From assembly GCF_024347415.1 (NCBI RefSeq), contig NZ_AP025477.1, positions 1,116,001 through 1,180,000 on the forward strand: 64,000 nt of DNA, in the 5' to 3' direction. The notes beneath the pieces were generated by a model. It saw only the letters and a list, made by a program, of their open reading frames with translations, made no database searches and was not told the origin of the DNA. The number at the start of each line of letters is the position of its first letter. Position 1 is the stretch's first letter. This document shows positions 11,666 through 29,112 of this stretch, one piece after another. The translations under genes were made by a program, and so were the position numbers. This DNA is from Vibrio crassostreae. Lineage in GTDB: Bacteria > Pseudomonadota > Gammaproteobacteria > Enterobacterales > Vibrionaceae.

Positions 11666-11697
11666 ACTGATTTTTTAAAAAAATTTGTAGAGAAAAG

Positions 11698-12264
11698 ATG
11701 CAAACAGAAATTAAAGTTGGCGTTAACTTGAAACGCCTTCGCCAAGAAAAAGGCTGGAGTTTAGACAAAACAGCGAAAGCAACAGGCGTAAGTAAGGCAA
11801 TGCTAGGACAAATTGAACGTGGAGAATCCAGCCCGACAGTCGCTAAGCTCTGGCAGATAGCTTCTGGGTTCGAGGTGTCACTTTCGAGTTTTATCGCTGC
11901 TAGTCCAAACAGTGAACTGACGAGCTTATTCAGAGATGCAAACGAACTAAGGCATGAGGAATACAACATTGGTTTTTTCGTCAGTTTGTTGTTTCCTTTT
12001 GAGGAAGTACTAGGGTTTGAGATATTCGAACTCACTCTGTCGCCCAACTATCAACATGAATCCGCCCCACATAACGCAGGCGTCACTGAGCACATCTTAT
12101 GTATTTCGGGAGAGATGGCCGTGCTGTTTGATGGTGAGTGGCAGACGTTAAGCGCAGGACAAGCCGTTCGCTTTAATGCTAACCAGAGCCATGGCTACAA
12201 AAATGTCGGTGAAGGAAATGCCGTATTTCATAATGTGATTCACTACCCTAACAACAAGCAATAG
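11698..12264 (+). CDS. XRE-family regulator with C-terminal cupin domain
   Basis: A 188-residue two-domain regulator: helix-turn-helix of the HipB/XRE type at residues 8-62 (GWSLDKTAKATGVSKAMLGQ) and a cupin ligand-binding barrel at about 105-185 (EHILCISGEMAVLFDGEW, then NQSHGYKN). Members of this architecture sense small metabolites and control neighbouring transport or catabolic genes. It is divergent from the BenE-type permease with two palindromes between them, so it most likely represses or activates that gene and itself. It runs towards the convergent cysteine-synthase-like gene. Confidence 0.85.
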   Translation: MQTEIKVGVNLKRLRQEKGWSLDKTAKATGVSKAMLGQIERGESSPTVAKLWQIASGFEVSLSSFIAASPNSELTSLFRDANELRHEEYNIGFFVSLLFPFEEVLGFEIFELTLSPNYQHESAPHNAGVTEHILCISGEMAVLFDGEWQTLSAGQAVRFNANQSHGYKNVGEGNAVFHNVIHYPNNKQ

Positions 12265-12342
12265 TGCCGGATTTGGCGATAACGTATGTATAGCGCTAAC
12301 GGATGAGTTGGCAGACCACTGGCTAGTATTCACTTAGAACGT

Positions 12343-13392: not shown

Positions 13393-13562
13393 CGCGACTC
13401 CATTTATTTGTTGAGGATAAGTTTGTTCATCGATTGGGTTGTCGATGATCATAAGCGTAGCTCTGAGGTCTGCTTAGTCAAGGAGTGGCGGAATTGAAAA
13501 GACTCTCTCTTTCAAAATAACAATTATAATTAGGGGTGATCGAATAGACTGAGGGTAAAAAA

Positions 13563-13778: not shown

Positions 13779-13886
13779 CCTAAGCGATTCCGGTGCACCA
13801 GAAACTCTGTTCTAAAGGTGTTTGACAAGCGCCTTGTAGGCTATAGCCCCTGCTAAAACATTCAGACGCACCTTAACTAGATACCA

Positions 13887-13985
13887 AAAAGCGAGCCACT
13901 TGGGCTCGCTTTTCATTATCTGATTTTCTTAGAATCTATTACAGATAGTTCTACCAACGGTTAAATAATCACGAGCTCTCGTTGG
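13887..13985 (-). pseudogene. Degenerate copy of ackA 3' end plus its terminator (copy 1)
   Basis: The hairpin AAAAGCGAGCC/GGCTCGCTTTT (13887-13913) is the same as that after ackA at 27857-27883. The bases that follow (about 13938-13985) align with the last 14-15 codons of ackA at about 80 percent with one extra base, read on the minus strand. The copy now contains stop codons and cannot be translated as ackA. It forms the left boundary of accessory module A. The 13786-13886 stretch before it also holds the perfect palindrome GGCTATAGCC; I see no gene there. Confidence 0.75.
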
Positions 13986-14078
13986 CTAGCAAGCTATTAG
14001 AATCGCAACTACTAACACGGATTTGGACAAGTAATCGCTAGGTCGTGTTGGACAAATCGTTAAATAAGTTTAAATGCC

Positions 14079-15404
14079 TTAGTTAGACTTTTTAGTGTCT
14101 AGATGTCTTAGATCTTCAACTACTGGTTGGATCCTTACGTCATTTCCTCCTTTCCAGTTAGCTGCATATACTCGCATCCAGTTTTCACCTAGGAATAGAG
14201 AAACTTCATCTTTCGTCCAACCATGTGTTGTTTCCAAAGCATCGACCACGGCCCAAATATCGGCAGGATGCCCAGTCTCAGAGATGGATCCATACCCTAA
14301 TGCTGGTGGGTAGTTTTGTGGATTCGAGGAAATCATTGTAAGTGAATCTTTAAGGTTGTGTAGGTAATCAACAGCAACGGCGACATGACGCTTACCATCG
14401 ACACCAAGTTCACGCTCAATTAAATCAGAAATATAGACAATGTGTTCGGCAACTGATTCGCCCGATGCATCTGACTCCTTGTTCAGGAAGCCGCCAACAA
14501 AATTAACGCCTATTAGACCATCAGTCTTAGCGATCGCTAATATTGCTTCATCATTGATATTTCTAGAAATTGGCATGAGTGCAGCAGCATTTGAATGTGA
14601 AGCCACTACAGGGGTTGTAGAGTATTTAGCGATATCAATACATGTTTAGTTTGAGTCGTGCGAGCAATCCGGTACCACACCATTTTTGTTCATGTGCTTT
14701 AATGCGGCTAATCCTAATTTTGTCAGCCCCTCACCATTTCCTACGCCTCCCTTTACAGATTCACCAGAGCCAGAAAACTGATTGTTTTTATTGTAAGTGA
14801 ATGACATGAGCTTAACGTCTTGGCTAAATCGGTCAATATGAGTTATATCTTCACCCATGGGGGTGATTGCCTGAAAATTAAAGATAACTGAGGTGACACC
14901 TACAGCTTTGTTTGCCTCGATTTCTTCAACGGTTGTCACGTGTTTTTGGCCATGTTTTTCGGCCAAATATTTTTTTGTAGCAGGCACTCGATCATAAATT
15001 TCTTCGATGGTTTTATCGGTGCCATTTGATAGCGTGGTTGAATAAACATCGTAATCCTCCTTACCAGCAATCGCGAGCATATCAAACTGTTCAGCCGTCA
15101 TTGCAGGGAAGCCTTTCCCATCTGAACCAATCCCACCGACAGCAGTGCCATCGATAACAATGCGATCAGCATACTTTGCCTTATACTTTTTACGAAACTT
15201 AGCGCGCTCCTCGTCAGTGTATGGCGCAGCAGCATCCACTAAAATATCAATACGCTGCTTTATTTGATCGGCTGGTTTTACATTACCCTCGTGATCAAGC
15301 GCATTCCAATATTTAGCATTAATATCTTCAGAGAGTGTAACTTCAGAAGAAACCGCTCCAGTTGCTACGGTTAAACATGTGAGTGCCAGTATTGATTATT
15401 TCAT
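14079..15404 (-). pseudogene. Peptidase M19 (membrane dipeptidase-like) gene with two in-frame TAA codons
   Basis: Read on the minus strand from the ATG at 15404 (ribosome site AGGAAG), one frame runs to the stop at 14079 and encodes a secreted M19-type dipeptidase of about 440 residues, interrupted only by TAA at codon 3 (15396-15398) and TAA at 14646-14648. After the first stop a signal peptide is still readable (SILALTCLTVATGAVSS). After the second, the family segment PVVASHSNAAALMP continues in the same frame up to a normal C-terminus (LGENWMRVYAANW). No frameshift is needed. The HxD zinc motif usual near the N-terminus is replaced by DGTAVGG. The divergent AraC gene may be its former regulator. 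Confidence 0.8.
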
Positions 15405-15541
15405 ATGCGCTTCCTGATTAAAGTGAATCTAAATAGTAAACAGATTGTTATAGCCATCTTAATTTATTCATATCTGCAACTACTTACCTTTTTATGCAAA
15501 GGGAGTATATTATAAGAAATCACGTTAAGTTGGAGTTAAGA

Positions 15542-16537
15542 GTGATTCCATTAGTCAGTGCCCAATTAGTGAAAGCCATTTTGAGTGGTTATCAAAAAGT
15601 ACTCGGAAAGACAGTAGATATAGAAGCCTTTGGCCTTAGCTATCATATCTATGAACAAAACTCATATTACTTTCCGTCTAAACCACTCATCGTTTTTCTT
15701 AACTTCTTACACCATACTTTGAGCACAAAACAACTCGTTGATTTTTATACATATATAATCAATAACTTTGCTATTCCTCATTACTTGGCCCAGTGTTCGA
15801 GTAAGCCTACCAATGTAAGAGATTCTTTGCAGAAAATGATAAAGATTTCTCGGATACAAGCACCGTCCGCTCAGATTACGTTAGAAGAAAATAGCGACAT
15901 ATTTTGGCTAAAAAGAACCCAAGTGATCCATGGGTTGGATGACACACCCTCAGACTTTGTATTCGTTCTCTTTGTTCAGTTATGGATCAACACCATGTTG
16001 GGCAAGGCAGTGAAAATACATAAAATTCACACCCCTTCAAAGTCGCTATTTACACTTGGGGCATTAACAGTGACTAACCCTCAAACGGATATTCATTATC
16101 AAAAGGGGTTCACTAGCGTTGGCTTGTTAACTTCGTTATTAGAACGAGAAACGACCTTACCCAATGAGTATTTTGAAAATCTACAATCGAGATTAGAGCC
16201 GATTGATTTTTTAGATTCGGTCAAACATGCGATGGACAGTTATCTTGGAACTGAAAACTACAGTATTGATAGAATTGCCGGCGTGCTAGGTGTAAGCGTC
16301 CGTCAGTTTCAATACAATTTAGAAGCACATGGTGTTACGTATCAGAAGTTGAAAGATGAAGTGATACAACACAATGCGAAATGGCTAATACTACAGAATC
16401 AGTCGAATTTATCGACTATTGCGACACAACTTGGCTACTCTTCTATCACTCAGTTTTCGAGAAGCATTAAACGCATTACGGGCATGTCTCCACGCGCGTA
16501 CAAACAGCATTTGTTCAATGAACAACTTGGGAGCTAA
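15542..16537 (+). CDS. AraC-family transcriptional regulator
   Basis: A regulator of about 331 residues with an N-terminal arabinose-binding-type domain and a C-terminal AraC helix-turn-helix pair in the last 100 residues (IDRIAGVLGVSVRQFQYNL and LSTIATQLGYSSITQFSRSIKRITGMSPRAYKQH in outline). I prefer the GTG at 15542, which has GGAG five bases upstream; an ATG at 15494 in the same frame would add 16 residues but has no ribosome site. It is divergent from the broken peptidase gene and probably controlled it. It lies in module A between ackA-like repeats. Confidence 0.82.
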   Translation: MIPLVSAQLVKAILSGYQKVLGKTVDIEAFGLSYHIYEQNSYYFPSKPLIVFLNFLHHTLSTKQLVDFYTYIINNFAIPHYLAQCSSKPTNVRDSLQKMIKISRIQAPSAQITLEENSDIFWLKRTQVIHGLDDTPSDFVFVLFVQLWINTMLGKAVKIHKIHTPSKSLFTLGALTVTNPQTDIHYQKGFTSVGLLTSLLERETTLPNEYFENLQSRLEPIDFLDSVKHAMDSYLGTENYSIDRIAGVLGVSVRQFQYNLEAHGVTYQKLKDEVIQHNAKWLILQNQSNLSTIATQLGYSSITQFSRSIKRITGMSPRAYKQHLFNEQLGS

Positions 16538-16687
16538 GGGGCGAAAGAATACCGATGTTCGACTCTTCGATTTAGAGCCAAATCTTAGATACATGTATAT
16601 TCTCAGTTATCACTCAGAAGCGATAACTGTTTTGACTACCAGGTAAATATCTCTTATTGGCAATTTTGGCTTTGCTGTAGCGCCCCA

Positions 16688-17608
16688 TTAGAGAGAGTTT
16701 TTATCATCGTTGGATTTCTCATTCCCCTTAAAGTACTCAACCAGAAAATCAATAAAGGCACGTATTCGATAAGGTTGATATTCACCCGACTTATAGACCG
16801 CATGCATGGGTAAACTTGCCGCGGTGTAGTGCTCAAACAACGGCACCAATTGTTCATTTTCAAAGTACGGTTGAACCATCCAACTTGGTAATGCTCCAAT
16901 TCCATGTCCCGCTAATGCCATAGCCAACAGCATGTCTGAACTATCGCTTTTAAAGACTTCTTTCACCTTGACCTTTAGTTGTGGGGCCAACTCTTGTTCA
17001 AATACCCAAGTGTTTGATGGGGAGGAAAGAGAGTACGTAAGGCAATCATGATGTTTTAAGTCGCTAGTGAGTTTCGGGGTAGATCGGGTTCTCAAATAGT
17101 CTGGAGAAGCAAAATATACCAACTGGTTGTTAAACAAAAAACGGGCTTTGTAATCAGAATCTTCGAGGACAGAGACACGCATAGCGATGTCAATACCACT
17201 TTCAATAAGGTTAATTTGTTTTTCATTTACCGATAAATTGATCAATACCTTTGGATGCTTAGTCATAAACTGTCCAATAGGTTTAGCAAGCAATCGTGTC
17301 GCCATCGCACTCGGTACTGACAACGTTAGCTCTCCAACCACCTCGGAGAGTTCGCCTTTTAACTCCGCTTCTGTGGACTCCATTTCTTCTATGACTCGCT
17401 CACAATAAGCCAGATAGCTACAGCCCTGTTTTGTGAGTTCAATTCTTCGACTATTACGATAGAACAATGAAAAGCTGATATCACGCTCCAACCAGGCAAT
17501 TTTTTTGCTGATAGAACTTTGCGTGACGTTCATCTCATCGGCAACAGCCGTAAAGTTTCCTAAGTAAGCCGTCCGAATGAATACTCTCATGCAGTTGATC
17601 TTGTCCAT
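16688..17608 (-). CDS. LysR-family transcriptional regulator
   Basis: A 306-residue LysR regulator with the winged helix-turn-helix at residues 3-60 (FTAVADEMNVTQSSISKKIAWLE) and a substrate-binding domain of the type found in the CrgA/AaeR-like branch (residues about 90-290). It is divergent from the SDR gene at 17707 with 98 bp between the starts. That region contains ATTCC-N5-GGAAT near 17612 and ATGGAAT near 17664, possible half-sites. The likely role is control of the SDR and DoxX-like genes. The start at 17608 has GGA eight bases upstream. Confidence 0.83.
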   Translation of the reverse strand: MDKINCMRVFIRTAYLGNFTAVADEMNVTQSSISKKIAWLERDISFSLFYRNSRRIELTKQGCSYLAYCERVIEEMESTEAELKGELSEVVGELTLSVPSAMATRLLAKPIGQFMTKHPKVLINLSVNEKQINLIESGIDIAMRVSVLEDSDYKARFLFNNQLVYFASPDYLRTRSTPKLTSDLKHHDCLTYSLSSPSNTWVFEQELAPQLKVKVKEVFKSDSSDMLLAMALAGHGIGALPSWMVQPYFENEQLVPLFEHYTAASLPMHAVYKSGEYQPYRIRAFIDFLVEYFKGNEKSNDDKNSL

Positions 17609-17706
17609 TTGGATTCCATGTAGGAATGGGTGGTATACCGATTTTACTATTCAACACCCCTAAATGGAATGATTTAATAACGGCATCACACTAGAGGAGT
17701 CTATTA

Positions 17707-18606
17707 ATGAATACTAAATCACAACCCATTGCGATAGTTACAGGCGCTAACGGTGGCATTGGAAAAAATTACACTCGTATGATGCTCGACGATGGATATC
17801 AAGTAGTTATGGCTGTGCGTAATGCGTCCGCAGGAGAATTGGTACGTGAAGAACTGCTCAAATCTCATCCGGACGCTTTAATCGATGTGCTAACGGTGGA
17901 TATGAGTAGCCTATCGTCAATTAAGGCGTTTTCTAAACAGGTAACCCAAAAATATACTCGGATTGATGTACTCGCTCACAACGCGGGTGTCTACTTTTTT
18001 GATAACAAGCGTCGAGAATCTGAGGATAGAATCGAGCTAAATGTTGCGGTCCATGTTGTTGGCCCGTATGCGTTAACAATGCAGTTACTACCACTACTAA
18101 AAGAAACTCGTGACTCACGAGTGATCACCATGTGTTCTACTGAACATCACGGGGCTGAATTGGATCTTAGTGATCTTCAAATGGCGGAAGATTTTGAACA
18201 AAAGGGCAACACAATCGCTTACGCTCGTAGTAAATTTGCAGGGCTGGCACTGAGTCACGCGATGGGAAGACAATTTGCAAAAGACGGATTCAATATTAAG
18301 GTAATTGCGGCGCATCCAGGCGTTTCTATTACGGGTATTCAGCATAAGGGTAACCCTACATTTATGCAGCGTGTTGCCATTTGGGTATATGGTAAATTAT
18401 TCGCAGCAACCCCAGCAGAGGCAGCAAAGCCACTTTATTTAGCCTCAACAATTGGAAACATGGGAGAGTTTTACGGCCCCACAGGGTTTAAGGAAATGAA
18501 AGGTAAGGCAGGACTCGTTCATCCGGAACCAGAGGCTCTTGATGAACAAGTAGGGACGAGCCTCATACGTCAAATGGCTACACTCAGTGGCGCTAATAGT
18601 GAATGA
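17707..18606 (+). CDS. Short-chain dehydrogenase/reductase
   Basis: A 299-residue SDR with a Rossmann fold. The cofactor turn TGANGGIGKNY is at residues 13-23 and NAG in LAHNAGVYF near residue 95. The catalytic region reads CSTEHHG, then YARSKFAG, giving the YxxxK pair. It resembles the retinol dehydrogenase/WW-oxidoreductase-like SDRs; the real substrate is unknown. The ribosome site AGAGGAG precedes the ATG at 17707. The divergent LysR gene probably regulates it, and the DoxX-like gene 137 bp downstream may be in the same unit. Confidence 0.82.
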   Translation: MNTKSQPIAIVTGANGGIGKNYTRMMLDDGYQVVMAVRNASAGELVREELLKSHPDALIDVLTVDMSSLSSIKAFSKQVTQKYTRIDVLAHNAGVYFFDNKRRESEDRIELNVAVHVVGPYALTMQLLPLLKETRDSRVITMCSTEHHGAELDLSDLQMAEDFEQKGNTIAYARSKFAGLALSHAMGRQFAKDGFNIKVIAAHPGVSITGIQHKGNPTFMQRVAIWVYGKLFAATPAEAAKPLYLASTIGNMGEFYGPTGFKEMKGKAGLVHPEPEALDEQVGTSLIRQMATLSGANSE

Positions 18607-18743
18607 CTGTATGATCATCTTTACTAAGCGAAATAGACTCGTTCATGAAATAAAATCTGAATACTATTTCTAAATATACCGACCATTAAGATGGTATCGA
18701 ACAACGACCTAACTACCGTCACTGTTCGTTGAGAGGTTAAACA

Positions 18744-19103
18744 ATGTTATTTATTCAAGGGTTACTCATTGCGTTTTTCTTATTTGCAAGCTCAATCAAA
18801 ATCTTTGGTTGGCTAAATAAAATCTATGAACCACAATTAGCATTTTTCCGCCGCTACGGACTTAATCGTGCGGCGATGTTTGCGGTGGGAGTGGTTGAAG
18901 CAACAGGTGCGATAGTGATGTTAGCTGGTATGATTACTGAAGACTCATTGTTAAGCGCCGTTGGTGCAAGTTTCATTGCTTTTACTTCAGTAGGCGCAAT
19001 ATTCTTTCATTTCCGTTTTGACACTTGGAAAGATGCAATACCGTCGATAGTGACGCTTCTTCTTTCTGTTCTGATTTGGTCACCACAATTAGAGATGCTT
19101 TAA
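18744..19103 (+). CDS. DoxX-like membrane protein
   Basis: A 119-residue protein with four hydrophobic segments of the DoxX type (FASSIKIFGWLNK at the N-terminus, then VGVVEATGAIVMLAGM). Family members sit in the inner membrane; some are linked to thiosulfate:quinone oxidation or oxidative stress, but most have no known role. GAGAGG lies eight bases before the ATG at 18744. It ends 16 bp before the second copy of the ackA-type terminator, so it borrows that hairpin for transcription end and marks the right edge of module A. Confidence 0.75.
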   Translation: MLFIQGLLIAFFLFASSIKIFGWLNKIYEPQLAFFRRYGLNRAAMFAVGVVEATGAIVMLAGMITEDSLLSAVGASFIAFTSVGAIFFHFRFDTWKDAIPSIVTLLLSVLIWSPQLEML

Positions 19104-19118
19104 CCATACATATAAAAC

Positions 19119-19236
19119 AAAAAAGCGAGCCACTTGGGCTCGCTCTCAAATCATCTATATTTGCTTAAGCGGTTGCTTAGATTACAGAAGCTCTACCGAC
19201 TGTTGAGCAATAACGAACTCTTCGTTGGTTGGCAAT
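19119..19236 (-). pseudogene. Copy of ackA 3' end plus its terminator (copy 2)
   Basis: The hairpin GCGAGCC/GGCTCGC at 19125-19143 matches the ackA terminator. On the minus strand 19182-19232 still reads PTNEEFVIAQQSVELL followed by TAA, exactly the last 16 residues of AckA. Against ackA, 66 of 72 bases agree, and the three differences inside the codons are all synonymous. Homology stops just upstream of the PT codons. This is not a drifting dead copy but looks like the end of another functional ackA allele. The rest of 19237-19415 shows no gene. Confidence 0.85.
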
Positions 19237-19415
19237 CTAATAATACTGCTTTCACATATTCCACTACCATTCAATATTTTACCAAGCTAGCTGCAACATA
19301 GCCAAAAGCGTTCAAATGCACATTCCACACCATGTTTCAAATCTTGTAAAATTATCTCAGTTGATGACTAAATATAGACATAGCTGCCAATAATTTAAAA
19401 AGGATAAGTACCCTA

Positions 19416-20135
19416 CTAATTAAAGCGGTAGTAGAAGCCTAAAATTGCATCATAACTTGCGTCATTTTCCATATCTTTAAGCATTAGGTAAGGCTCTAAA
19501 CCTGACTCCCCCATGTATCCAACATAAAACTCATGGCTCACAAGATAGTTATCTGACACTAAATGACCAGCTTTAACGACATCTCTCGTTATATCATTTT
19601 GAGCGTAATTTAGGCCGGTGCGGTACACCAAATTGAGGTTTTTTATAGGTTGATAAACAAATTTCGCTCGCGCCCGGTACATGCCGATAATGGTCTCGTT
19701 GACCACGTCTTGCGTTGCCATTAAATCAAAAGTTGTCATAAAGTTTGGTAGAACAAGATAGTTAAAAGTTGCGCCACCCCAAATTGCGCCAGCCTCCGTC
19801 TTAAAATCATCTGAAATGCCCAACTGCTTCGCAATAGCAGCATAGTTGTCACCCATAGATTCATACGCTAGACCGAAATCAAACTCTGCGCTCATTTTCT
19901 CAGACAAAGGCATACGATACTTACCGTAAGCCGTTGCGAGGTTGTACTCTAACCCTGCAGTCTCTTTGTTGCCTTCAACACTAAAAATACCTGCAACAGA
20001 ATCCGTCATTTTCACTTCGGTCTCTAACTTGTAAATATCTCGGTTGACACCACTTTCAAGTCGAATGTAATCCGCCGCTGCAACTTGGAAAGAGAGTCCT
20101 AGAGCTGCGCACATCATCGTTTTTGTTAGTTTCAT
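19416..20135 (-). CDS. Outer-membrane beta-barrel protein
   Basis: A 239-residue protein with a signal peptide (MKLTKTMMCAALGLSFQVAAA) and alternating hydrophobic strands that end in FYYRFN, an outer-membrane barrel ending. It resembles small substrate-specific porins such as the KdgM type, but I cannot confirm the family. The ATG at 20135 is preferred because the signal peptide begins there; an upstream in-frame ATG at 20186 would add 17 residues before it. It lies 87 bp after the sulfatase gene on the same strand and may be the last gene of the maturase-sulfatase unit, giving uptake of sulfated oligosaccharides or release products. Confidence 0.7.
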   Translation of the reverse strand: MKLTKTMMCAALGLSFQVAAADYIRLESGVNRDIYKLETEVKMTDSVAGIFSVEGNKETAGLEYNLATAYGKYRMPLSEKMSAEFDFGLAYESMGDNYAAIAKQLGISDDFKTEAGAIWGGATFNYLVLPNFMTTFDLMATQDVVNETIIGMYRARAKFVYQPIKNLNLVYRTGLNYAQNDITRDVVKAGHLVSDNYLVSHEFYVGYMGESGLEPYLMLKDMENDASYDAILGFYYRFN

Positions 20136-20222
20136 CTGCTTTATTCTTAATATTTGAATATCATTATGGACATGACCGCTACCCACTAGCGGTCATGGAA
20201 GTTAAAAAGGTGGTCAGCTTCG

Positions 20223-21668
20223 TTACTTCTTGGCGTTATAACCTTTGAAGTCAGCGCCAGTTGGGATGTTCGGGTACTGGTGCATTGAACGAGCAGTTTC
20301 AGCGATGATCTTGCCAATCGGCTGTACTAGCCATGAGTGTTGGTAACCTTCATTGGCCCAGATTTCGTATTGTTCACCCGGATCACGCTCAAGATCGTAA
20401 ATCAAAGGAAAGGTAAGCGTTTCAAATCGGCCATGGGTCTCATAGGCAACTTTGAAATGCATCTTGTAGTTGTTCCATTTCACCGCAAATAACTCATCGT
20501 TCACGTACGTCAGAACATAGTTGCGGTTAGATTTATCGCTGTTACCTAAAATAAAGTCACTTTGATCGATCGAGTCGATAGGACGATCGGTTGGGATTTT
20601 GTCTTCATTACCAGTCAAATGCGCTAGGGTGCTGAACCAATCCAGATCAGAAATAATCTCATCGGTTACCTGCCCTGCCTCAACTTTGTTGCCGTAACGC
20701 ACTACCGCCGGAGTACGCATTCCCCCTTCAAAAGCGGTACTTAAACCACCTCGCCATGGGCCATTGCTGCCTAAAGGCTCTTCACCTGGTTTTAAGATAT
20801 TGCCTTCAACAATGTTGCCTGAGCCGTTATCGCCAGCAATGATGACGATGGTGTTATCTAACTGGCCACTTTGCTTTAAAGCCGTCATCAAACGACCGAT
20901 ATTATGATCGAGTTCAAGTTGAGTATCGGCATAAGTACCTTGTTTCGACTTACCTTTAAACTCATCCGACACGGTGTATGGCGAATGGAAAGTAGTGAAG
21001 CCAACATAGGTATAGAAAGGTTTGTCTTGGCTGATACTTTGGTTGATGAACTCAATGGTTTTATCCACCAGCTCTGCATCCATTCCCTTTTTGGTGTCTA
21101 GATTAAACTCTTTCACTTTTTCAGGCTTGCCTCCTTTGACACCTTGCCAAATGTAAGGAATCTCAGCGACACTTGAGTCGAAGTCTTTACTACTGGTGTA
21201 ACCAGCCTCATCCGAGCCACCTCGGTAGCCGTACCAATCGTCATAACCTTGGTCGATTGGTAAGCGACCATCGACAGAGCCGATGTGCCACTTGCCATAC
21301 AAAGCCGTTTTGTAACCATCGTCACTGAGCATTTCTGCAATGGTGTATTCCCAAGGAGCTAGGCCATCAGCCACACCTTTTAGAATTGGCACCTTGTACG
21401 TACCTGAACGAATCGGAAGACGCCCCGTGTGCATTGCAGCTCGGCTTGGCGTACATTGGTTTTGAACGTTGTAGTTGAGAAAGCGGATTCCCTCTTCTGC
21501 CACTTTATCAATCTCTGGGGTTGGGATTTGACCGCCTTGGCTAGAGATATCGCCCCAGCCCCAGTTATCTACCATTAAGAACATTACGTTTGGCTTTTCA
21601 GCAGCTTGGGCGGTATGAGCGACACCAAGCGCCCCCGCAACCGAGAGTGCAACTAATTTTTTACGCAT
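20223..21668 (-). CDS. Secreted Cys-type sulfatase
   Basis: A 481-residue sulfatase with a signal peptide (residues 1-23). The activation motif is C72-T-P-S-R followed by AAMHTGR, the cysteine form whose C72 is converted to formylglycine. Metal-site segments are VDNWGWGD near residues 33-40 and AGDNGSGN near 310. The second sulfatase at 26265 is a paralogue with the same DNWGWGD and NVQNQCTP segments. The maturase gene lies only 19 bp upstream, so both are made together. It probably removes sulfate from a polysaccharide or aryl ester in the periplasm; the exact substrate cannot be read from the sequence. Ribosome site AAAGGTAGAG. Confidence 0.88.
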   Translation of the reverse strand: MRKKLVALSVAGALGVAHTAQAAEKPNVMFLMVDNWGWGDISSQGGQIPTPEIDKVAEEGIRFLNYNVQNQCTPSRAAMHTGRLPIRSGTYKVPILKGVADGLAPWEYTIAEMLSDDGYKTALYGKWHIGSVDGRLPIDQGYDDWYGYRGGSDEAGYTSSKDFDSSVAEIPYIWQGVKGGKPEKVKEFNLDTKKGMDAELVDKTIEFINQSISQDKPFYTYVGFTTFHSPYTVSDEFKGKSKQGTYADTQLELDHNIGRLMTALKQSGQLDNTIVIIAGDNGSGNIVEGNILKPGEEPLGSNGPWRGGLSTAFEGGMRTPAVVRYGNKVEAGQVTDEIISDLDWFSTLAHLTGNEDKIPTDRPIDSIDQSDFILGNSDKSNRNYVLTYVNDELFAVKWNNYKMHFKVAYETHGRFETLTFPLIYDLERDPGEQYEIWANEGYQHSWLVQPIGKIIAETARSMHQYPNIPTGADFKGYNAKK

Positions 21669-21687
21669 AGAGCTCTACCTTTCTAAT

Positions 21688-22953
21688 TTAAGATTTATTT
21701 GTTTTAAATTGACCGTGTTTCACTGGAAGCGAGTTAACTCGCAGAAGATGGGCGAGTTTCTCGTCAATATGGCGGAAAAAGTCGTACCACCCTTCACACA
21801 AATAGTTGTGGCCACGCTCGCCTGATGAAGACGAAATAATGCGATTTTTTGGACACTCACCAAAGCATGCAAATTGATAAGGGCATGCTCGGCATTGAGC
21901 TGTTAACGACTTGCTTTTGGCATAACCAAAGGCTTGCTGAACAGCACTAAACGCCATCTCATCGAGTGATGATTGGTGAATATTTCCTGCTAAGTAATCT
22001 GGATAAACAAAGTGGTCACAGCGGTAAACATCCCCGTTGGGCTCGATGGCTAAACCTTTGCCACACATCTCACCTAGGGTGCAGAGCGGGTTATGCTCTC
22101 CCATCCAAGTAGCAAACAGCGCCTCAAAATACTGCACATGAACACGGCCAACATCATAGCGATACCACTCATCAAAGACCGTTTTTAAGAACGATCCCCA
22201 ATCTTTGGCTTCAACAGACCAATGCTCGACAATTGAGTCTGGGTGAGATGGCGATAAGCGAGGGTCGCCTTGCATACATTGGCTTGCTTGTGGTGATTGT
22301 GTACGAAACGTTTTGGGTTCAACAATTGGGATAAACTGAATCAGTGGCGATTGCACCACATCACGCAGAAAGCGATACACTTCAAGCGACGATTGGCTCG
22401 TCAGGCGATTCACGCAGGTTAAAGTGCAAAATGAAACTTCATGTTTTTTAAGGAGTTCAATTGCTCCCATGACTTGCTGCCAAGTGCCTCGGCCTGCGCG
22501 ATTGGTACGATAGGTATTGTGTAGCATCTCGTCACCATCAATACTGATGCCAACAAGAAACTGATGTTTTGCTAAAAATTGACACCACTCATCGTTAAGT
22601 AGAGTGCCATTAGTTTGCAGGTCGTTCAGGACCTCTACATCTTTAGGACAATACTTTTTCTGTAATCGAACAACTGTACGGAAGTAGTCCAAACCCAACA
22701 TTGTTGGTTCTCCTCCCTGCCATGAAAAATTAACTTGAGGAGCATTATGAGCTGCAAAATATTGCTTGATGTAGGCTTCTAGGCTTTCTTCATTCATTTG
22801 TTCGCATGCACCAAGGCGATCCGCCAGCAATTCTTCTTTACTGAGGTAATAACAATATTGACAATCAAGATTGCACTTTGCCCCAATAGGTTTCGCCATG
22901 ACATGCATATTTTTCTTTACTTTTTTATTAAAACACTGAGTGGTTAAAATCAT
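21688..22953 (-). CDS. Anaerobic sulfatase-maturating enzyme (radical SAM, SPASM)
   Basis: A 421-residue radical SAM protein. The cluster motif is C27-N-L-D-C31-Q-Y-C34, followed by GGEPTML, which binds S-adenosylmethionine. The C-terminal SPASM region has CTLGEMCGKG, CDHFVYP and CRACPYQFACFGEC, giving ligands for two further iron-sulfur clusters. The family converts the active-site cysteine or serine of sulfatases to formylglycine in the cytoplasm without oxygen. Its targets should be the two Cys-type sulfatases here. The start at 22953 is uncertain; an internal ATG 15 codons later (MHVMAKP) fits the family start better, with no strong ribosome site for either. Confidence 0.88.
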   Translation of the reverse strand: MILTTQCFNKKVKKNMHVMAKPIGAKCNLDCQYCYYLSKEELLADRLGACEQMNEESLEAYIKQYFAAHNAPQVNFSWQGGEPTMLGLDYFRTVVRLQKKYCPKDVEVLNDLQTNGTLLNDEWCQFLAKHQFLVGISIDGDEMLHNTYRTNRAGRGTWQQVMGAIELLKKHEVSFCTLTCVNRLTSQSSLEVYRFLRDVVQSPLIQFIPIVEPKTFRTQSPQASQCMQGDPRLSPSHPDSIVEHWSVEAKDWGSFLKTVFDEWYRYDVGRVHVQYFEALFATWMGEHNPLCTLGEMCGKGLAIEPNGDVYRCDHFVYPDYLAGNIHQSSLDEMAFSAVQQAFGYAKSKSLTAQCRACPYQFACFGECPKNRIISSSSGERGHNYLCEGWYDFFRHIDEKLAHLLRVNSLPVKHGQFKTNKS

Positions 22954-23117
22954 ATTTTTCGCCTTAGCTATATTTAAACAGCCCTATATATTTTCAAGTA
23001 AGAAGTACGAACAGATATATCTTGGCGGAAATAATACATATATATAAGGAAAAACTGATTTTCCCCTCAGGCAAATTAGCTCTGATAATATTCTATTAAA
23101 TTCGTTGGAGTATATTT

Positions 23118-23507
23118 ATGAAAAAAACGCTCTTAGTAGCAGGAATAGTAGTTGCGTATGTAGGAATGGGAATGTTGGTCTGCCCGTTTGAATTTTTTGA
23201 CTTTAATTCAGGCGTACCTTTCACGTACTCTGTAGATAGGGCTAGTGAGTTTAGAGGAGTAGGCGCATTCATCTTGCTTTGCGGCCTATTTATCACTTTT
23301 GGAGCCATACTGAACAAACAATTAAACAATATGTATTTATTGTCCTTAGCAATTTACGCCAGTTTTTCGTCAGGTCGAATCACAAGCTTAATTATTGATG
23401 GCATTCCAAACCAAACCATCTCCCTTATTTTAGGCATCGAAGTCGTTATATTCATTGCATGCTTAATTAGTTTTTTAAAACACCGAACAACCAATAAACC
23501 TATTTAA
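23118..23507 (+). CDS. Small membrane protein, DUF4345-like
   Basis: A 129-residue protein with four hydrophobic segments (about residues 4-22, 50-66, 70-90, 98-118). The segment RASEFRGVGAFILLCGLF between helices is like that of the DUF4345 family, whose function is unknown. GGAG lies eight bases before the ATG at 23118. It is divergent from the maturase and 51 bp upstream of the CydA-like gene, so the two are probably co-transcribed. The stretch 22954-23117 between the divergent genes is AT-rich; I see no FNR-type box in it. Confidence 0.65.
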   Translation: MKKTLLVAGIVVAYVGMGMLVCPFEFFDFNSGVPFTYSVDRASEFRGVGAFILLCGLFITFGAILNKQLNNMYLLSLAIYASFSSGRITSLIIDGIPNQTISLILGIEVVIFIACLISFLKHRTTNKPI

Positions 23508-23558
23508 TTATTTTCTAATTAAATAACCCCCCAATAATTATCTCTATAGGTATTGAAG

Positions 23559-25091
23559 ATGGACTATATCGATCTTGTCGATAATGCTCGTTTAGAATTT
23601 GCATTTAGTATGACGTCCCACCATGTGTGGGTGCCCATTTATCTAGGTGCCGCTTTAGTCGCAGCAATCCTCGAAACACTTTATGTAACAACAGGTCGTA
23701 TCGACTACAAAACATCCTCTATGTACATCAGTAAAATGCTGTTGCCGACTTTTATCGTAATTATATTTTTGGGTATTGCCACTCCCCCATTTTCTGATGA
23801 TTGGACAGTATGGTGGAGTTACGTCAAGGTACTTGACCCAGAAGACCTCACAGGTCGAATTCCTTCGACTTTAATTGTTGTCACTCTGATTGCGTTTATT
23901 ACCAGCCAAGCAGGGTGGAAGCGACTACCACCTAAAATTCATGTTATTGCAACTTGGATCTTACCTTTAATGCCTGCAATAGCGGAATCTTCTGCTATTG
24001 CAGTTAATGGTTGGATGCACGCACCTCATACCACATCATCATTTGATTTGGATACCTTGATGTATGTTCGTGACAGCTTCTCCGCTTACTTCTTCCAACC
24101 AATGACTGCCTTACGCTTTGCACATAACTTTGCAGCAACTTACATTGTCGGTATTGCTGCCGTGTTAAGTATGAGCTGCTACTTTTTGCTGCGTAACAAA
24201 CATGCGTTCTTCGTTCAAAAAACGGTACTTATCGCCTCTGTCAGCGGTTTGCTCCTTTCTCTGTTTTTAGCCGTAGCCGGGGATGAACAAGGTAGAGCGG
24301 TAGCAGAAACTCAGCCAATGAAACTGGCCCAGCTTGAAGCTCTGTGGGAAACAGATGCAGACCCACACTTGGTTCTATTTGCCATTCCTGATATGAAAGA
24401 GATGACGAACAAGTACGAGATTTCCGTACCCTACATTCTTGGCTTTCTATTAGGTAGCGATGACGAAAACCCTATTAAAGGCATTAAACAGCTACTAGAA
24501 GAAAACGAACAACGAGTGCGTAGCGGTATGATCGCCTACCAAGCCATGCAGGAATACCAACAAGACCGCGCCAATCAAGAAGCTGAGCATCGCCTGCTTG
24601 CGCATCATAAAGATCTTGGCTTTGCTTACCTATTGGGTAAATACACCGATGACATTTTGTCTGCAACCGATGCGGATATTAAAAATGCCGCCAAAGACAC
24701 CATGACGAACGTCACTTTCTTGTTCTTTAGCTTCCGCATTATGGTTGGCTTGGGGATTCTGCTGACAGGTGTATTTGCTTACTGGTCAGTGAAGAGCTAC
24801 AAAAACTCGCTTGATACCGCTTCACCTTGGATGATTAAGTTCTCAATGCTTGCGCTTCCAATGGCGTTAGTAGCTTATTTGGTCGGCTGGGCGCTGTCAG
24901 AGGTGGGACGCCAACCTTGGATCATTTATGAAGTTTTACCGACCTTTACTGGTGGGGGCGACTATCAAAACGGCCAGTCGGCAGGCTTCCCTATGGACAC
25001 ACTCGTTATGATCACAGCAGTGCTGTTCTCAAGCCTGAGCCTCTATATTGCATGGTTGATTCGCCGTGGCCCACAACTGACTAACAAGTAA
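23559..25091 (+). CDS. Lone CydA-like protein (cytochrome bd oxidase subunit I paralogue) without cydB
   Basis: A 510-residue protein collinear with E. coli CydA, including a long quinol loop and GRQPW at 450-454. With the start at ATG 23559, the haem b558 ligands are kept (H189, M395), as are the N-terminal haem histidine (H21, matching H19), the quinol-site pair K255/E260 and E458 (matching E445). However, the segment that should carry E74, E99 and E107 is strongly changed (ATPPFSDDW... then DPEDLTGRIPSTL) and I find no equivalent of these glutamates; E99 is a ligand of a high-spin haem in E. coli. No cydB follows: only a 29-residue CydX-like peptide and a terminator. It may be a quinol-oxidising haem protein with altered or no oxygen chemistry. 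A TTG at 23553 is an alternative start. Confidence 0.82.
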   Translation: MDYIDLVDNARLEFAFSMTSHHVWVPIYLGAALVAAILETLYVTTGRIDYKTSSMYISKMLLPTFIVIIFLGIATPPFSDDWTVWWSYVKVLDPEDLTGRIPSTLIVVTLIAFITSQAGWKRLPPKIHVIATWILPLMPAIAESSAIAVNGWMHAPHTTSSFDLDTLMYVRDSFSAYFFQPMTALRFAHNFAATYIVGIAAVLSMSCYFLLRNKHAFFVQKTVLIASVSGLLLSLFLAVAGDEQGRAVAETQPMKLAQLEALWETDADPHLVLFAIPDMKEMTNKYEISVPYILGFLLGSDDENPIKGIKQLLEENEQRVRSGMIAYQAMQEYQQDRANQEAEHRLLAHHKDLGFAYLLGKYTDDILSATDADIKNAAKDTMTNVTFLFFSFRIMVGLGILLTGVFAYWSVKSYKNSLDTASPWMIKFSMLALPMALVAYLVGWALSEVGRQPWIIYEVLPTFTGGGDYQNGQSAGFPMDTLVMITAVLFSSLSLYIAWLIRRGPQLTNK

Positions 25092-25100
25092 GGATTCATT

Positions 25101-25190
25101 ATGATTTGGTACATTGCGTTTTATACCACGCTGATTGTCTCGGTCGTGCTGATCGCCAAAATAGATAAGCGCCACAACGAGCAAGATTGA
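25101..25190 (+). CDS. CydX-like 29-residue membrane peptide
   Basis: A short gene 9 bp after the CydA-like gene, with AAGGA six bases before its ATG. The product begins MIWYIAFYTT, has one membrane helix (about residues 4-19) and a charged tail (KIDKRHNEQD). This is the layout of CydX/YbgT peptides, which start MWYF and stabilise the haems of bd oxidase by packing on CydA. Its presence shows the locus kept the small subunit while lacking subunit II. Coding is supported by the ribosome site, spacing and the terminator just after; the family call is by resemblance of a very short sequence. Confidence 0.68.
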   Translation: MIWYIAFYTTLIVSVVLIAKIDKRHNEQD

Positions 25191-25197
25191 TAACAAA

Positions 25198-25229
25198 AAG
25201 GCCAAGCATTCACCCTGTCGTTTGGCCTT
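25198..25229 (+). terminator. Terminator of the CydA-like unit
   Basis: AAGGCCAA pairs with TTGGCCTT around a 16-base loop, 8 bp after the CydX-like gene. It closes the unit and shows that no cydB belongs to this transcript. Confidence 0.7.
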
Positions 25230-25324
25230 ATTCGATCAATACTGCTTATAATTGACGTACGATAATCTTTGATATTTAGGATGGCTGTAAAATACCAACC
25301 ATCACTTTTACTTGTTGAGCTATC

Positions 25325-26221
25325 ATGCTGAGTATCAATTTTGATCTAAACCTAATCCGAGTGTTCCTGACTATCGCTGAAACTCAAAACATCAGTGCAG
25401 CAGCAAAACGATTAGGGAAAACACCCAGTGCCTTATCAAAAAGCTTACAAAAGCTACGCGATGAAACGGGCGATCAACTATTTATTCGCAGATCCTCCGG
25501 CCTCTCACCAACACCGTATGCGGTGATGCTAGAACGAAAGCTCAAAGCGGTACGAAGTGATATTCAAATAGCCTTTGCCAATGAGAAATTTGAGCCTAAA
25601 GATTTTCAGGGTGAGATCGTGATTGCTATCAATGCGGCTCTACAAGACATTTTTCAACCACACTTAATGCAAATGTTGGCATCTCACGCCCCTAAAGCAA
25701 CCTTCAGTTTCATTAATCGCCAAGCGTCAACTTATCAAGACTTACTTGCTGAAAAAGTGCACGTTGCAGTTGGTTTTTGGAGTGATGTTTGCTCAAAGGA
25801 AATCAAACAAAAGGTGATTGGTGAGAACCGATTTTCTTTGTATGCAAGAAAAGAGCACCCTGCGACCACCCTCGAAGAAGCGTTACGTTCCCCATTAGCC
25901 ATACTACGTGTCAATGGATGGAACTCGGAATACATTAACTTCTCTCAGCACTTAACGCGTGAAGGTCTTGCTCATCATATTCAATTTAAGTTTGAAGATC
26001 TTAACGCTTTCTTAAGCTGCATAGAAAATACCAATTGCGTAACCCCACTTCCATACTTTCCGAAATTAGAAGAGTTTAAGCGCTTCGCTCTTGATAAGTT
26101 CGAATGCGACATCAAACTCGTTGCTTGCCACCCATCAAGCCACCGCGATGCAGCACTTAATCAATGGTTAGTTAAAACCATTGAGAAAGCGTACAAAGCA
26201 AACATAGAGTTAACAAAATAA
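25325..26221 (+). CDS. LysR-family transcriptional regulator
   Basis: A 298-residue LysR protein with the helix-turn-helix in the first 60 residues (LIRVFLTIAETQNISAAAKRLGKTPSALSKSLQKL) and an effector domain after about residue 90. It lies inside module B, downstream of the CydA-like unit and convergent with the second sulfatase gene. By location it is the best candidate for the regulator of the sulfatase and CydA-like genes, but no operator is evident. TGAG precedes the ATG at 25325. Confidence 0.82.
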   Translation: MLSINFDLNLIRVFLTIAETQNISAAAKRLGKTPSALSKSLQKLRDETGDQLFIRRSSGLSPTPYAVMLERKLKAVRSDIQIAFANEKFEPKDFQGEIVIAINAALQDIFQPHLMQMLASHAPKATFSFINRQASTYQDLLAEKVHVAVGFWSDVCSKEIKQKVIGENRFSLYARKEHPATTLEEALRSPLAILRVNGWNSEYINFSQHLTREGLAHHIQFKFEDLNAFLSCIENTNCVTPLPYFPKLEEFKRFALDKFECDIKLVACHPSSHRDAALNQWLVKTIEKAYKANIELTK

Positions 26222-26228
26222 ACACAAA

Positions 26229-26246
26229 AAGGGAGTAAACTCCCTT
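26229..26246. terminator. Hairpin between LysR gene and convergent sulfatase
   Basis: AAGGGAGT and ACTCCCTT with a very short loop, preceded by A-rich and followed by AT-rich sequence. It can act in both directions for the two convergent genes. Confidence 0.6.
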
Positions 26247-26264
26247 AAATATATTTGTTATTCG

Positions 26265-27689
26265 CTAGTCGTAACCCTTAAATTCTTCACCTGGCTGAAT
26301 GTTTCGGTATTGATGCATGCTGGCCTTTAAATCTGCGATTCTTTTCATGACCGGATCAAATATCCACGTATGTGAGTAACCCTCGTTACCTAGTAATTCA
26401 TAGGCTTCTTTAGGGTCGTTTTTAATATCAAAGACTTGTGGGAAAGTGAACTTCTCTATTCGAGAGTGCGTTGATTCTGCCGCCATAAAGTGCATTTTGA
26501 AGTTTCGCCACTTAACAGCAAACAACTCATCACCGACAAAAACAACAAAGTGATCACGATTAGATTTCGGTTTACCTAAGAAGAAGTCCTTCTGGTCAAC
26601 ACCATCAATTGGTCGGTCTTTTGGTACTAGATCCGCAGCTCCGGCAAAGCTTGCAATCGTTGTGTACATATCAATATCACCAACGATCTCATCAGAGACA
26701 CGACCAGCTTCGATTTTGCCTGGGAATCGAATCATAGCTGGAGTTCGTAATCCTCCCTCATAAGCCGTACTTAAACCACCCCGCCATGGACCATTTGAAC
26801 CGCCTCCTCCGATTTCACCTGCAGCAAGCGCAGATCCCTGCGGAAAGTTACCAGCACCATTGTCACCACTCAAAATAACAAGGGTATTCTCCTCAATACC
26901 AGCTTTTCTAATTGCATCTAAAATTAGGCCTATGTTGTAATCCACCTCCATTTGAGTATCAGCATAGATGCCCGCTTTAGATTTGTTCTTAAAGTCATCA
27001 TGTACTGTAAATGGGGGATGGAAATGTGTGAAACCCACGTAGGTAAAGAATGGCTTACCTGACTTCGCCTTCTCTTGAATATGGGCAATAGAGCGTTCAG
27101 TAATCTCTCTATCTAATATCACCTTCGCTGGAATATCGAAAAGTTTAACCTTGTCAGCAGGTTTCCCTTTTACCCCCTCCCAAATATAAGGTGTTTCAGC
27201 GAATTCGGGATCCCATTGGGGGGTTGAGGTATAAGATGCTGCGTTAGTCCCTTCATTCGTTCCCCAGAAGTAGTCATAGCCTTGATAATTTGGAAGTTTT
27301 TCAATACTAGCACCGACATGCCACTTACCAAATAATGCCGTACTGTAGCCTGCGTCAGAAAGAAGTTCTGGTAGTGTATACTCCCATTGTGCAAGGCCGT
27401 CAGGTTCCCCTGGAGCAGGCACTTTTTGATTCCCCGTCCGGATCGGCAATCGACCTGTATGCAGCGCAGAGCGAGTTGGAGTACATTGATTCTGTACATT
27501 AAAGTTGGTTAGCCTAAGACCTTCTTTAGCAAAGTCATCTATGGTTGGCGTCTGTATTGTACTTCCCTGCACACTTAAATCACCCCATCCCCAGTTATCA
27601 ACCAGTAGATAAACAATATTCGGCTTTTCCGCAGCCGTAGTGGCGCTAGATAACGATATTGCACTTACTAACAAAACTTGTTTAAACAT
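26265..27689 (-). CDS. Secreted Cys-type sulfatase (second copy)
   Basis: A 474-residue sulfatase with a signal peptide (MFKQVLLVSAISLSSATTAA). The activation motif is CTPTR followed by SALHTGR, again the cysteine form. Segments VDNWGWGD, NVQNQCTP, GLSTAYEGGLRTPA and DPVMKRIAD are shared in outline with the sulfatase at 20223, so the two are paralogues that have diverged. It stands apart from the maturase (which is about 3.3 kb away) but should depend on it. The ATG at 27689 starts the signal peptide and has GAGAGG just before it; an ATG at 27701 is an alternative. Substrate unknown. Confidence 0.87.
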   Translation of the reverse strand: MFKQVLLVSAISLSSATTAAEKPNIVYLLVDNWGWGDLSVQGSTIQTPTIDDFAKEGLRLTNFNVQNQCTPTRSALHTGRLPIRTGNQKVPAPGEPDGLAQWEYTLPELLSDAGYSTALFGKWHVGASIEKLPNYQGYDYFWGTNEGTNAASYTSTPQWDPEFAETPYIWEGVKGKPADKVKLFDIPAKVILDREITERSIAHIQEKAKSGKPFFTYVGFTHFHPPFTVHDDFKNKSKAGIYADTQMEVDYNIGLILDAIRKAGIEENTLVILSGDNGAGNFPQGSALAAGEIGGGGSNGPWRGGLSTAYEGGLRTPAMIRFPGKIEAGRVSDEIVGDIDMYTTIASFAGAADLVPKDRPIDGVDQKDFFLGKPKSNRDHFVVFVGDELFAVKWRNFKMHFMAAESTHSRIEKFTFPQVFDIKNDPKEAYELLGNEGYSHTWIFDPVMKRIADLKASMHQYRNIQPGEEFKGYD

Positions 27690-27784
27690 TTTCCTCTCCA
27701 TTTAAGTCCATTTAAATCAAAAGTTTGGGCAGTATCCACTTACTTATAAACGCCCTTATTTATATATACACGCAATATCATAAA

Positions 27785-27850
27785 CTGGCCACTTTCGATG
27801 CACTGGTTGATCGCCGCAACATCACCAAGGTTGCTATACCTAAATCATAG
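27785..27850 (+). other. Possible gene tail (21 codons) in front of the ackA terminator
   Basis: On the plus strand the frame reads LATFDALVDRRNITKVAIPKS followed by TAG, directly before the ackA-type hairpin. It looks like the C-terminus of a protein, not random AT-rich spacer, and could be what is left of the original gene convergent with ackA. The frame upstream (27720-27780) is AT-rich and unlike coding sequence. I do not recognise the protein. Confidence 0.3.
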
Positions 27851-27856
27851 CAACAA

Positions 27857-27883
27857 AAAAGCGAGCCACATGGGCTCGCTTTT
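27857..27883. terminator. ackA terminator (master copy of the repeated hairpin)
   Basis: AAAAGCGAGCC pairs with GGCTCGCTTTT around a five-base loop, 36 bp downstream of the ackA stop on the minus strand, where it is followed by a T run. Near-identical hairpins occur at 13887-13913 and 19119-19146. The inverted pair GTTGCTAT/ATAGCAAC lies just left of it (27830-27853). Confidence 0.8.
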
Positions 27884-27918
27884 GAATTTTTATGCTTTTG
27901 CTTAAGCAGTTATTTAGA

Positions 27919-29112
27919 TTACAGAAGTTCTACCGACTGTTGAGCAATCACGAACTCTTCATTGGTTGGGATAACCATTGCTACAGCGTCTAGCATTTCA
28001 GACTTCGCGATGATGCCTTCAGCACCAAAGCGAGCCGCTTCGTTACCCGCTACATCTTCAACAAAACCTAAAATCTTAAGGTTGCTTAGGATCTCACGAC
28101 GAATTGGTAGAGAGTTCTCACCGATACCGCCAGTGAAGATGATTCCGTCTAAAGAATCTAACGTTGCAAGGTAAGAAGCAATGTATTTTGATACGCGGTA
28201 AGTAAACACCTCAAATGCTAACTTAGCACCTTCATGACCCTCTTCCATTGCTTCTAAAATGCCACGAGCATCGCTCGTAAGACCAGACACGCCTAGGAAG
28301 CCAGACTCCTTGTTAAGAGAGTTGAAGACTTGCTCTTGCGACCAACCTTTCTTAAGTAGGTACTCGATGATGCCTGGGTCTAGGTCACCACAACGTGTGC
28401 CCATCATAAGGCCAGAAAGCGGTGTGAAGCCCATTGATGTATCAACACTGTTACCGTCTTTGATAGCACATACAGACGCACCGTTACCTAGGTGAACAGA
28501 GATGAAACTCGCTTCTTCAACTGGTTTGTTTACCATCTTCGCAGCTTCACGACTAACAAAGTAGTGGCTCGTACCGTGGAAACCGTAACGACGAACACCA
28601 AAGTCTGTGTATAGTTCTTTTGCGATTGCACCAGTGAATGCACGTTGTGGCATTGTTTGGTGGAAAGCCGTATCAAATACAGCAAATTGAGGTAGAGAAG
28701 GGAAAGCTTCAATCGCAGCACGAATGCCGATAGCACCTGCAGGGTTATGAAGTGGAGCTAGGTCAGATAGACTTTCAATTTCGTTCGTTACTTCTTCAGT
28801 AATACGAACGGTTTGAGTGAACTTCTCACCGCCGTGAACGATACGGTGACCGATAGCAACGATATCAGCAGTGAAGCCTAGATCTTCCATCAGGCCAACT
28901 AGTTTGCCAATGGCAATTTTGTGGTGGTTACCCTCACCTTGAATGGCAATTTCAGTTTTCTCGCCTTGATATTTCCAGCTCATGCGAGCATCTTCAAGAC
29001 CAAAACACTCCCCTAGGCCACTCAATACTGCTTCACCAGAAACAGAATCAATGACAGCAAATTTTAGGGATGAACTACCCGAGTTAATAACCAGAACAAA
29101 CGAATTAGACAT
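27919..29112 (-). CDS. ackA: Acetate kinase
   Basis: A 397-residue acetate kinase of normal length. The N-terminal phosphate-binding motif VLVINSGSSSLKF is at residues 6-18, then HRIVHGGEKF near 110, DTAFHQTMP near 148 and GFHGTSH near 178, all classic positions. It interconverts acetyl phosphate plus ADP with acetate plus ATP in the cytoplasm. In many gamma-proteobacteria pta follows ackA; here it is replaced by the accessory block, so this is an orphan, possibly the second acetate kinase gene of the genome. Its last 16 codons plus terminator are repeated twice downstream (19119-19236, 13887-13985). A weak AGGA site precedes the start. Confidence 0.95.
   Translation of the reverse strand: MSNSFVLVINSGSSSLKFAVIDSVSGEAVLSGLGECFGLEDARMSWKYQGEKTEIAIQGEGNHHKIAIGKLVGLMEDLGFTADIVAIGHRIVHGGEKFTQTVRITEEVTNEIESLSDLAPLHNPAGAIGIRAAIEAFPSLPQFAVFDTAFHQTMPQRAFTGAIAKELYTDFGVRRYGFHGTSHYFVSREAAKMVNKPVEEASFISVHLGNGASVCAIKDGNSVDTSMGFTPLSGLMMGTRCGDLDPGIIEYLLKKGWSQEQVFNSLNKESGFLGVSGLTSDARGILEAMEEGHEGAKLAFEVFTYRVSKYIASYLATLDSLDGIIFTGGIGENSLPIRREILSNLKILGFVEDVAGNEAARFGAEGIIAKSEMLDAVAMVIPTNEEFVIAQQSVELL

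Follow-up and report, generated by a model that had tools for sequence, protein, structure and literature searches.

Why should the 3' end of an acetate kinase gene be present three times in one stretch of a Vibrio genome, and what accounts for the accessory genes that lie between the copies? The window considered here, a 64,000-nucleotide (nt) stretch of Vibrio crassostreae DNA (contig NZ_AP025477.1, positions 1,116,001 to 1,180,000, forward strand), contains the gene ackA-2, whose last codons and terminator recur twice downstream of it. The answer, given here with high confidence, is that the window carries a composite island: two elements lacking a recombinase, which entered in succession at an attachment site within the final 17 codons of ackA-2, on a model taken from relatives in which a large serine recombinase (LSR) gene adjoins the same target.

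The portion of ackA-2 exchanged by the islands comprises its last 17 codons, the stop included (27919-27969). When the 3' region of the gene is compared with the window by blastn, all of the repeats are direct copies (Table 1), and the proposal of an earlier note on this DNA, that three ackA ends bound two accessory modules, is borne out at 87% and 76% identity. The middle copy (copy 2) retains 16 ackA codons and the stop, and its three codon differences from the intact gene (AAT/AAC, GTG/GTT and GAA/GAG) are all synonymous, as had been noted; the distal copy (copy 1), rightly described as more decayed, has a broken reading frame and 76% identity over 107 nt (blastn alignment span 13883-13979). 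Each copy is no more than the ackA-side half of an attachment site, with an element half-site on the other side; beside copy 1 that half-site is clear (13996-14017, two mismatches to TGTTAGTAGRTGCGATACTAAT). The gene-side half of the target forms with the CC side a near inverted repeat, CAATGGTT-ATCCC-AACCAATG, a dyad recognized by eye and imperfect in the other species compared. The window genome has two ackA genes in total, ackA-2 on contig C2 and a second, 54% identical, on C1. A tRNA was rejected as the insertion target: the window is without any tRNA.

An uninterrupted version of the site is found in the genome designated G017, in which benE, a cupin regulator gene, the gene of a pyridoxal phosphate (PLP)-dependent enzyme, about 500 bp and ackA follow one another in that order. 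The left flank of the window together with copy 1 aligns to this empty site (716/815, with 34 gap positions), and the ackA side of the window aligns to it from the tail onward; the segment at approximately 13.99-27.97 kb is therefore an insertion in the ackA end.

The same arrangement recurs across the genus. Of 227 genus genomes, 212 match a sequence model of the junction, mostly through the intact ackA tail alone; 48 junctions were read in 34 of the 227, a lower bound (the best-scoring cases were fetched), and two more genomes, G169 and G228, were added through their LSR. Dropped before that count were tails with no readable junction in G024 (at 10756), G032 (10930 and 9444), L143 (6669), L155 (8999) and L158 (3498 and 11845); 12 of the 48 retained rows, owing to decay or a shifted anchor, have a tail whose first bases at the anchored place are not CC. 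In the sense of ackA the junction reads half-site, six variable bases, CCAACCAAYGAAGA, remainder of ackA. TACTAAT precedes the six variable bases exactly in 26 junctions and with at most one mismatch in 38; TGCGATACTAAT is matched with at most two mismatches in 28, and some junctions have other half-sites. At the 48 junctions the attachment site is fixed and either end carries hybrid half-sites; the informative pairs among them switch within about 12 nt of one point. Serial insertion downstream of ackA with regeneration of its 3' end, the process that the earlier note had put forward, is supported by these junctions and by the empty G017 site. The variation in occupancy that it had anticipated, with no module, one or several, is found between species (one genome each) and not between strains; at least two extra tails are present in G000, G024, G032, G035, G101, G158, G187, G192 and G204. 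Its idea that displaced ends had once been in use gains from the 35 of 48 tails, copy 2 among them, that are still open frames with the stop in place. What it said of the source of copy 2 holds only as to a once-used, displaced end: the closest match, the G005 end (87.9%), is nearly equalled by the window's own ackA end (86.6%), a weak indication of origin.

Two other origins of the element half-site were tried and rejected: diverged ackA, with which it has no homology on alignment by eye, and a dispersed sequence, exact matches being confined to three stretches of the genome collection, with none in the viral collection. Allowed at most two mismatches, the half-site occurs at 20 places, of which 18 are recorded ackA junctions and two (G034 and G115) are not; at up to three mismatches it is present in 36 of the 227 genomes, and a backwards control pattern also matches 16 times. 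Across 61 genomes, the weaker matches of the 118-nt tail outside ackA mostly cover just its 32-nt terminator part; the exceptions are draft contigs of G002, G024, G198, G199, G204 and G241, which carry tails with no ackA seen in the fetched stretch. In G084, two ackA tail junctions (L159 and L160) lie away from its ackA and share 4.1 kb at 98.6%.

The candidate enzyme stands next to the target. The gene that immediately follows ackA in G010, G026 and G136 encodes an LSR with Resolvase, Recombinase and zinc-ribbon domains above the Pfam cut-offs (domains were scanned in these three of 11 relatives), and the proteins are 39-40% identical in the two comparisons made. With these three as queries, matches at E 1e-30 are found in 36 of the 227 genomes; 11 matches are close members (>700 bits) and 30 are weaker. 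All 11 close LSR genes come next downstream of ackA and share its strand, with a match-to-match gap of 66-297 nt, and all 11 are open frames of 598-636 amino acids (aa) with YSRVS, the apparent stops in the G228 and G241 matches leaving their frames unbroken; the ackA match of G130 is split into two pieces. Of the 30 weaker matches, 19 were fetched together with about 1.5 kb of DNA to either side, and ackA is absent from all of them. Among 295 genomes of the taxonomic order, only two have a match to this LSR at E 1e-80, and they belong to the window genus, so that other genera yield none. Measured from ackA as far as the first junction, islands with an LSR extend for about 6 kb in G136, 8 in G228, 14 in G169, 18 in G010, 31 in G026, 52 in G113, 54 in G192 and 58 in G187; G026 additionally has a MobA/VirD2-type relaxase domain. 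In these eight LSR islands with a junction read, those with LSR types L239, L240, L243, L247 and L248 have the half-site TGCGATACTA(A)T and the other three do not; the half-site beside copy 1 is of the type found with the LSRs of G026, G113, G169, G187 and G192.

These facts suggest a mechanism. The LSR would recombine a site on the element, often TGTTAGTAGRTGCGATACTAAT-N6-CC..., with the site in ackA, ...ATGGTTATC-CC...; the element would bring its own version of the remainder of ackA, terminator included, and so complete the gene anew at each insertion, the old ackA end being pushed to the far side, where it becomes the next copy. On this model the LSR would catalyse the joining, and its direction would be controlled. 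Repetition would build an array in which the copy farthest from ackA is the oldest, and this fits the order of decay in the window. The ackA end now in use (27852-27969) would, by analogy with the relatives, have been supplied by element 2.

The position of the exchange can be read from islands that are alike on one side of the boundary and differ on the other. G113 and G187, from two species, have a common island end in which 702 of 712 positions are identical through CCAACCAA and 68 of 93 thereafter; their longer common stretches are 94-98% identical. G026 and G192 likewise have a common island end, which includes what, from its motif, looks like a mobile group II intron; G010 and G158 have a common stretch of only about 26 nt. 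In all three pairs, which combine the same island end with different tails, the first difference falls at most 12 nt past the boundary. Conversely, the pairs G026/G128, G136/G195 and G017/G010 have ackA bodies that are 94-96% identical yet last 17 codons that are 69-78% identical, and G026/G113 and G187/G192 have near-identical new ackA ends on bodies that differ. The tail differences of these last two pairs lie mainly in the first 9 nt after CC, small differences that place the crossover at or just inside CC. On such comparisons, the LSR islands replace the last codons of ackA and sometimes alter the protein. At the same island-end position in L105 (G026) and L154 (G192) there is a group-II-intron-like end, 98.7% identical over 1.76 kb.

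A number of results weigh against this account. The half-site beside copy 2 is weak, and the pairing of half-site type with LSR may be confounded in composite islands. Among 48 pairs whose ackA bodies are alike, divergence is no greater in the last 17 codons (mismatch 0.05-0.14) than in the preceding codons (0.09-0.14); most exchanges of LSR-less islands accordingly leave no trace in the protein, and our confidence was lowered by this comparison, slightly, to its present high level. Exchange of the coding end is clear for the LSR islands and for two LSR-less pairs (G101/G227 and G128/G195), not in general. Of the 25 pairs with the most similar island ends, just two have an identical end next to a tail of 80% identity, and many have a tail whose similarity equals or exceeds that of the end. 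A close-family LSR is absent from 26 of the 34 junction genomes, some of these assemblies being drafts. The earlier note was right that neither module of the window contains an integrase: no recombinase family is found among the scanned proteins of both (13 open reading frames, ORFs), and the window genome, with no match at E 1e-30, also lacks the LSR that 11 relatives encode at the same site. Nor are remnants of an LSR found in the LSR-less islands searched: 69 stretches yield only the known LSR of L166 and, in G035, a weak match to a resolvase that lies upstream of ackA. Since the window genome has no LSR and the LSR-less islands have no remnant of one, the route of the two modules is an inference: they would have entered through an LSR acting in trans or through one since lost.

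Several of these points are shared by an explanation that dispenses with a site-specific enzyme altogether, RecA-dependent homologous recombination of imported DNA over the approximately 100-bp ackA tail, as in natural transformation. Vibrio is naturally competent, the tails supply the homology, and an outer edge at CC would look alike wherever in the tail the crossover fell; the missing LSR of the window genome and the lack of a switch at the boundary in most of the similar island-end pairs are also as this explanation would have them. It is nonetheless improbable in the face of the three pairs that first differ within 12 nt of the boundary, the last of which shares only about 26 nt, and of the LSR that adjoins ackA in 11 of 11 cases; DNA-uptake-linked recombination, which the earlier note had listed among the things to look for, is not supported as the driver. 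Established modules may still be swapped by recombination of the RecA type.

If LSR-mediated insertion is retained, the LSR-less modules fit a non-autonomous class of element. That they are instead LSR islands in decay, a proposition that competes with movement in trans and not with LSR insertion, has a chance somewhat short of even: the split M19 gene of element 1 and the broken frame of copy 1 speak for it, and the missing LSR remnants, the existence of an 844-bp element with a single gene and the uniformity of the right ends speak against it. Fifty-six right ends give 329 aligned pairs, in which alignment ends less than 100 nt past the ackA stop in 271, at 100-199 nt in 54 and beyond 200 nt in 4; about 145 nt beyond the stop are conserved, and the cargo that comes next is unrelated. 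In the common right end the terminator is followed by TTTTATATGTTGG, ACCATCRC and finally CTGACTYATTTNTGCCCC, after which the sequences are unrelated. The minimal element, at ackA in G238 (L146:2280-3124), has one gene of 182 aa.

The cargo itself is varied. Of 196 module ORFs of at least 70 aa that were listed, 177 were scanned, in sets of 101 and 76; the 25 commonest families of the 101-ORF set, which includes the LSR island L166, have among them LysR regulators, transporters, oxidoreductases and candidate anti-phage proteins such as QatA, QatB, QatC and QatD. Many cargo ends carry an 80-nt repeat, TTTGCAATACCTGAAGTTATCCG...GCTAATTTAGCAAAGTCACTGACTCATTTTTGTCCAAAAACGTGTTAG, which is dispersed in the genus and often stands shortly after unrelated genes; it has 18 matches in the window genome and is present in 22 of 31 genomes searched, including all 19 of the window genus. 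Tyrosine recombinases of about 200 aa lie beside or inside this repeat (L155:12169-12750 and L181-L209), and in six fetched loci such a recombinase follows the same host gene. The repeat may mark a second, inner exchange system.

That a tyrosine recombinase or an integron-like system moves the cargo modules is the least probable of the explanations considered. It would account for the cargo-end repeat found elsewhere beside such enzymes and for the 193-aa tyrosine recombinase, its C-terminus lost, beside the junction of the G101 element (L155). The island stretches of seven island genomes, on the other hand, contain no match to PF00589 (in an eighth genome searched, G036, no island was read); G032 has one farther along the same contig, about 9-11 kb past the last tail. 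In neither ORF set does PF00589 appear among the families that have at least two members, so each set contains at most one. Relatives of the L155 recombinase occur in 17 of the 34 junction genomes as against 96 of 227 overall, and RNAalifold gave no pairs for 19 sequences of the inner repeat, which thus has no conserved fold. A tyrosine integrase inside the islands was rejected on the same search, the L155 candidate being truncated and its closest relatives sitting elsewhere, and so was an integron, with no PF00589 match in these stretches and no folded attC (inner repeat, 19 sequences; the ackA tail itself was not folded). A two-tier cassette platform at Vibrio ackA-2, in which an ackA-specific LSR would act in trans on recombinase-less cassettes sharing conserved frame ends, and CTGACTYATTTNTGYCC boundaries associated with small tyrosine recombinases would serve for a separate exchange of cargo, giving a genus-wide pool without an integron, can be sketched from these elements; we regard it as doubtful.

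Within the window, the two sulfatase genes of element 2 (20223-21668 and 26265-27701; 53% identical) flank the genes for the radical SAM protein, DUF4345, cytochrome bd subunit I and LysR. The M19 dipeptidase gene divided into two ORFs in element 1 is at 14079-15239.

Table 1. Features of the window, with examples of the dispersed repeat
Feature	Position	Strand	Basis or content
ackA-2 (acetate kinase), target gene	27919..29112	-	Pfam Acetate_kinase E 1e-147
Proximal attachment site, ackA end and terminator	27852..27969	-	boundary near 27969/27970
Retained gene-side half of target site	27970..27990	-	sequence read
Copy 2, displaced ackA 3' end and terminator, middle attachment site	19116..19232	-	blastn 103/119 (87%), E 4e-34
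Copy 1, displaced ackA end and terminator, distal attachment site	about 13883..13989	-	blastn 81/107 (76%), E 2e-12
Spacer AGCTTG and element half-site TGTTAGTAGTTGCGATTCTAAT	13990..14017	-	beside copy 1
Spacer AGATTG and weak element 2 half-site	19233..19260	-	beside copy 2
Element 1, 5.2 kb	13990..19232	.	M19 dipeptidase in two ORFs, AraC-type and LysR-type regulators, short-chain dehydrogenase, DoxX-like
Element 2, 8.7 kb	19233..27969	.	two sulfatases, radical SAM/SPASM, DUF4345, cytochrome bd subunit I, LysR, one family-less protein
Far-side backbone: benE, cupin regulator, PLP-dependent enzyme	10403..13452	.	adjoin ackA in empty-site genome G017
80-nt repeat, examples	G000:C2:230889-230967, C2:237370-237447, C1:1925798-1941956, others		

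Among the papers listed from the open-licence literature, none was found that ties ackA to islands or to a serine recombinase. The islands carry metabolic and candidate anti-phage genes, and the C-terminus of acetate kinase is repeatedly rewritten by a mobile element; the LSR family comes with a defined natural site, and the movement of recombinase-less islands in trans is made testable. Among systems already described, strand-biased circularizing integrative elements (SE) share the Vibrio host and a 6-bp junction spacer; they use intA, tfp, intB and srap, with the target spacer next to motif C (PMC10214605). In the ackA islands, by contrast, a given element end keeps its spacer unchanged across two species. 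A search for tyrosine recombinases, not extended to srap and tfp, gave none in either window module or in the island stretches read from seven genomes. The phage-inducible chromosomal island-like elements (PLE) of Vibrio cholerae are, likewise, Vibrio islands excised by an LSR (Int); the partner site in the PLE assay is, in contrast, the attC of the V. cholerae repeat (VCR), and the portion of the report cited makes no mention of replacement of the ackA gene end (PMC6002521).

The nearest likeness is with cassette chromosomes. The staphylococcal cassette chromosome (SCC, SCCmec) is inserted by the Ccr large serine recombinases at the 3' end of rlmH (orfX) in Staphylococcus and shares with the ackA islands an LSR that drives insertion into the 3' end of a conserved gene, composite islands in which the site is present in several copies, and pseudo-elements lacking ccr (PMC3900703, PMC6222049); composite islands with recombinase-less pseudo-elements are found at ackA as well. 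The enterococcal cassette chromosome (ECC, with ccrAB-Ent) is similar in its LSR, its use of the 3' region of rlmH and its highly variable cargo; tandem ECCs with multiple ccrAB genes were not directly observed in that study (PMC6222049). The ackA islands differ from ECC in target and enzyme set, and from SCC in targeting ackA-2 instead of rlmH, in having a single LSR gene directly after the target and in their Gram-negative host; their element also supplies a terminator along with about 17 codons, and can give the protein a different C-terminus. They are not filed as SCC or ECC because the target is another one and likeness of the LSR to Ccr was not part of the comparison. What is indicated is that a Gram-negative genus has a system of composite islands resembling SCC, with an LSR family of its own and a metabolic gene as its target.

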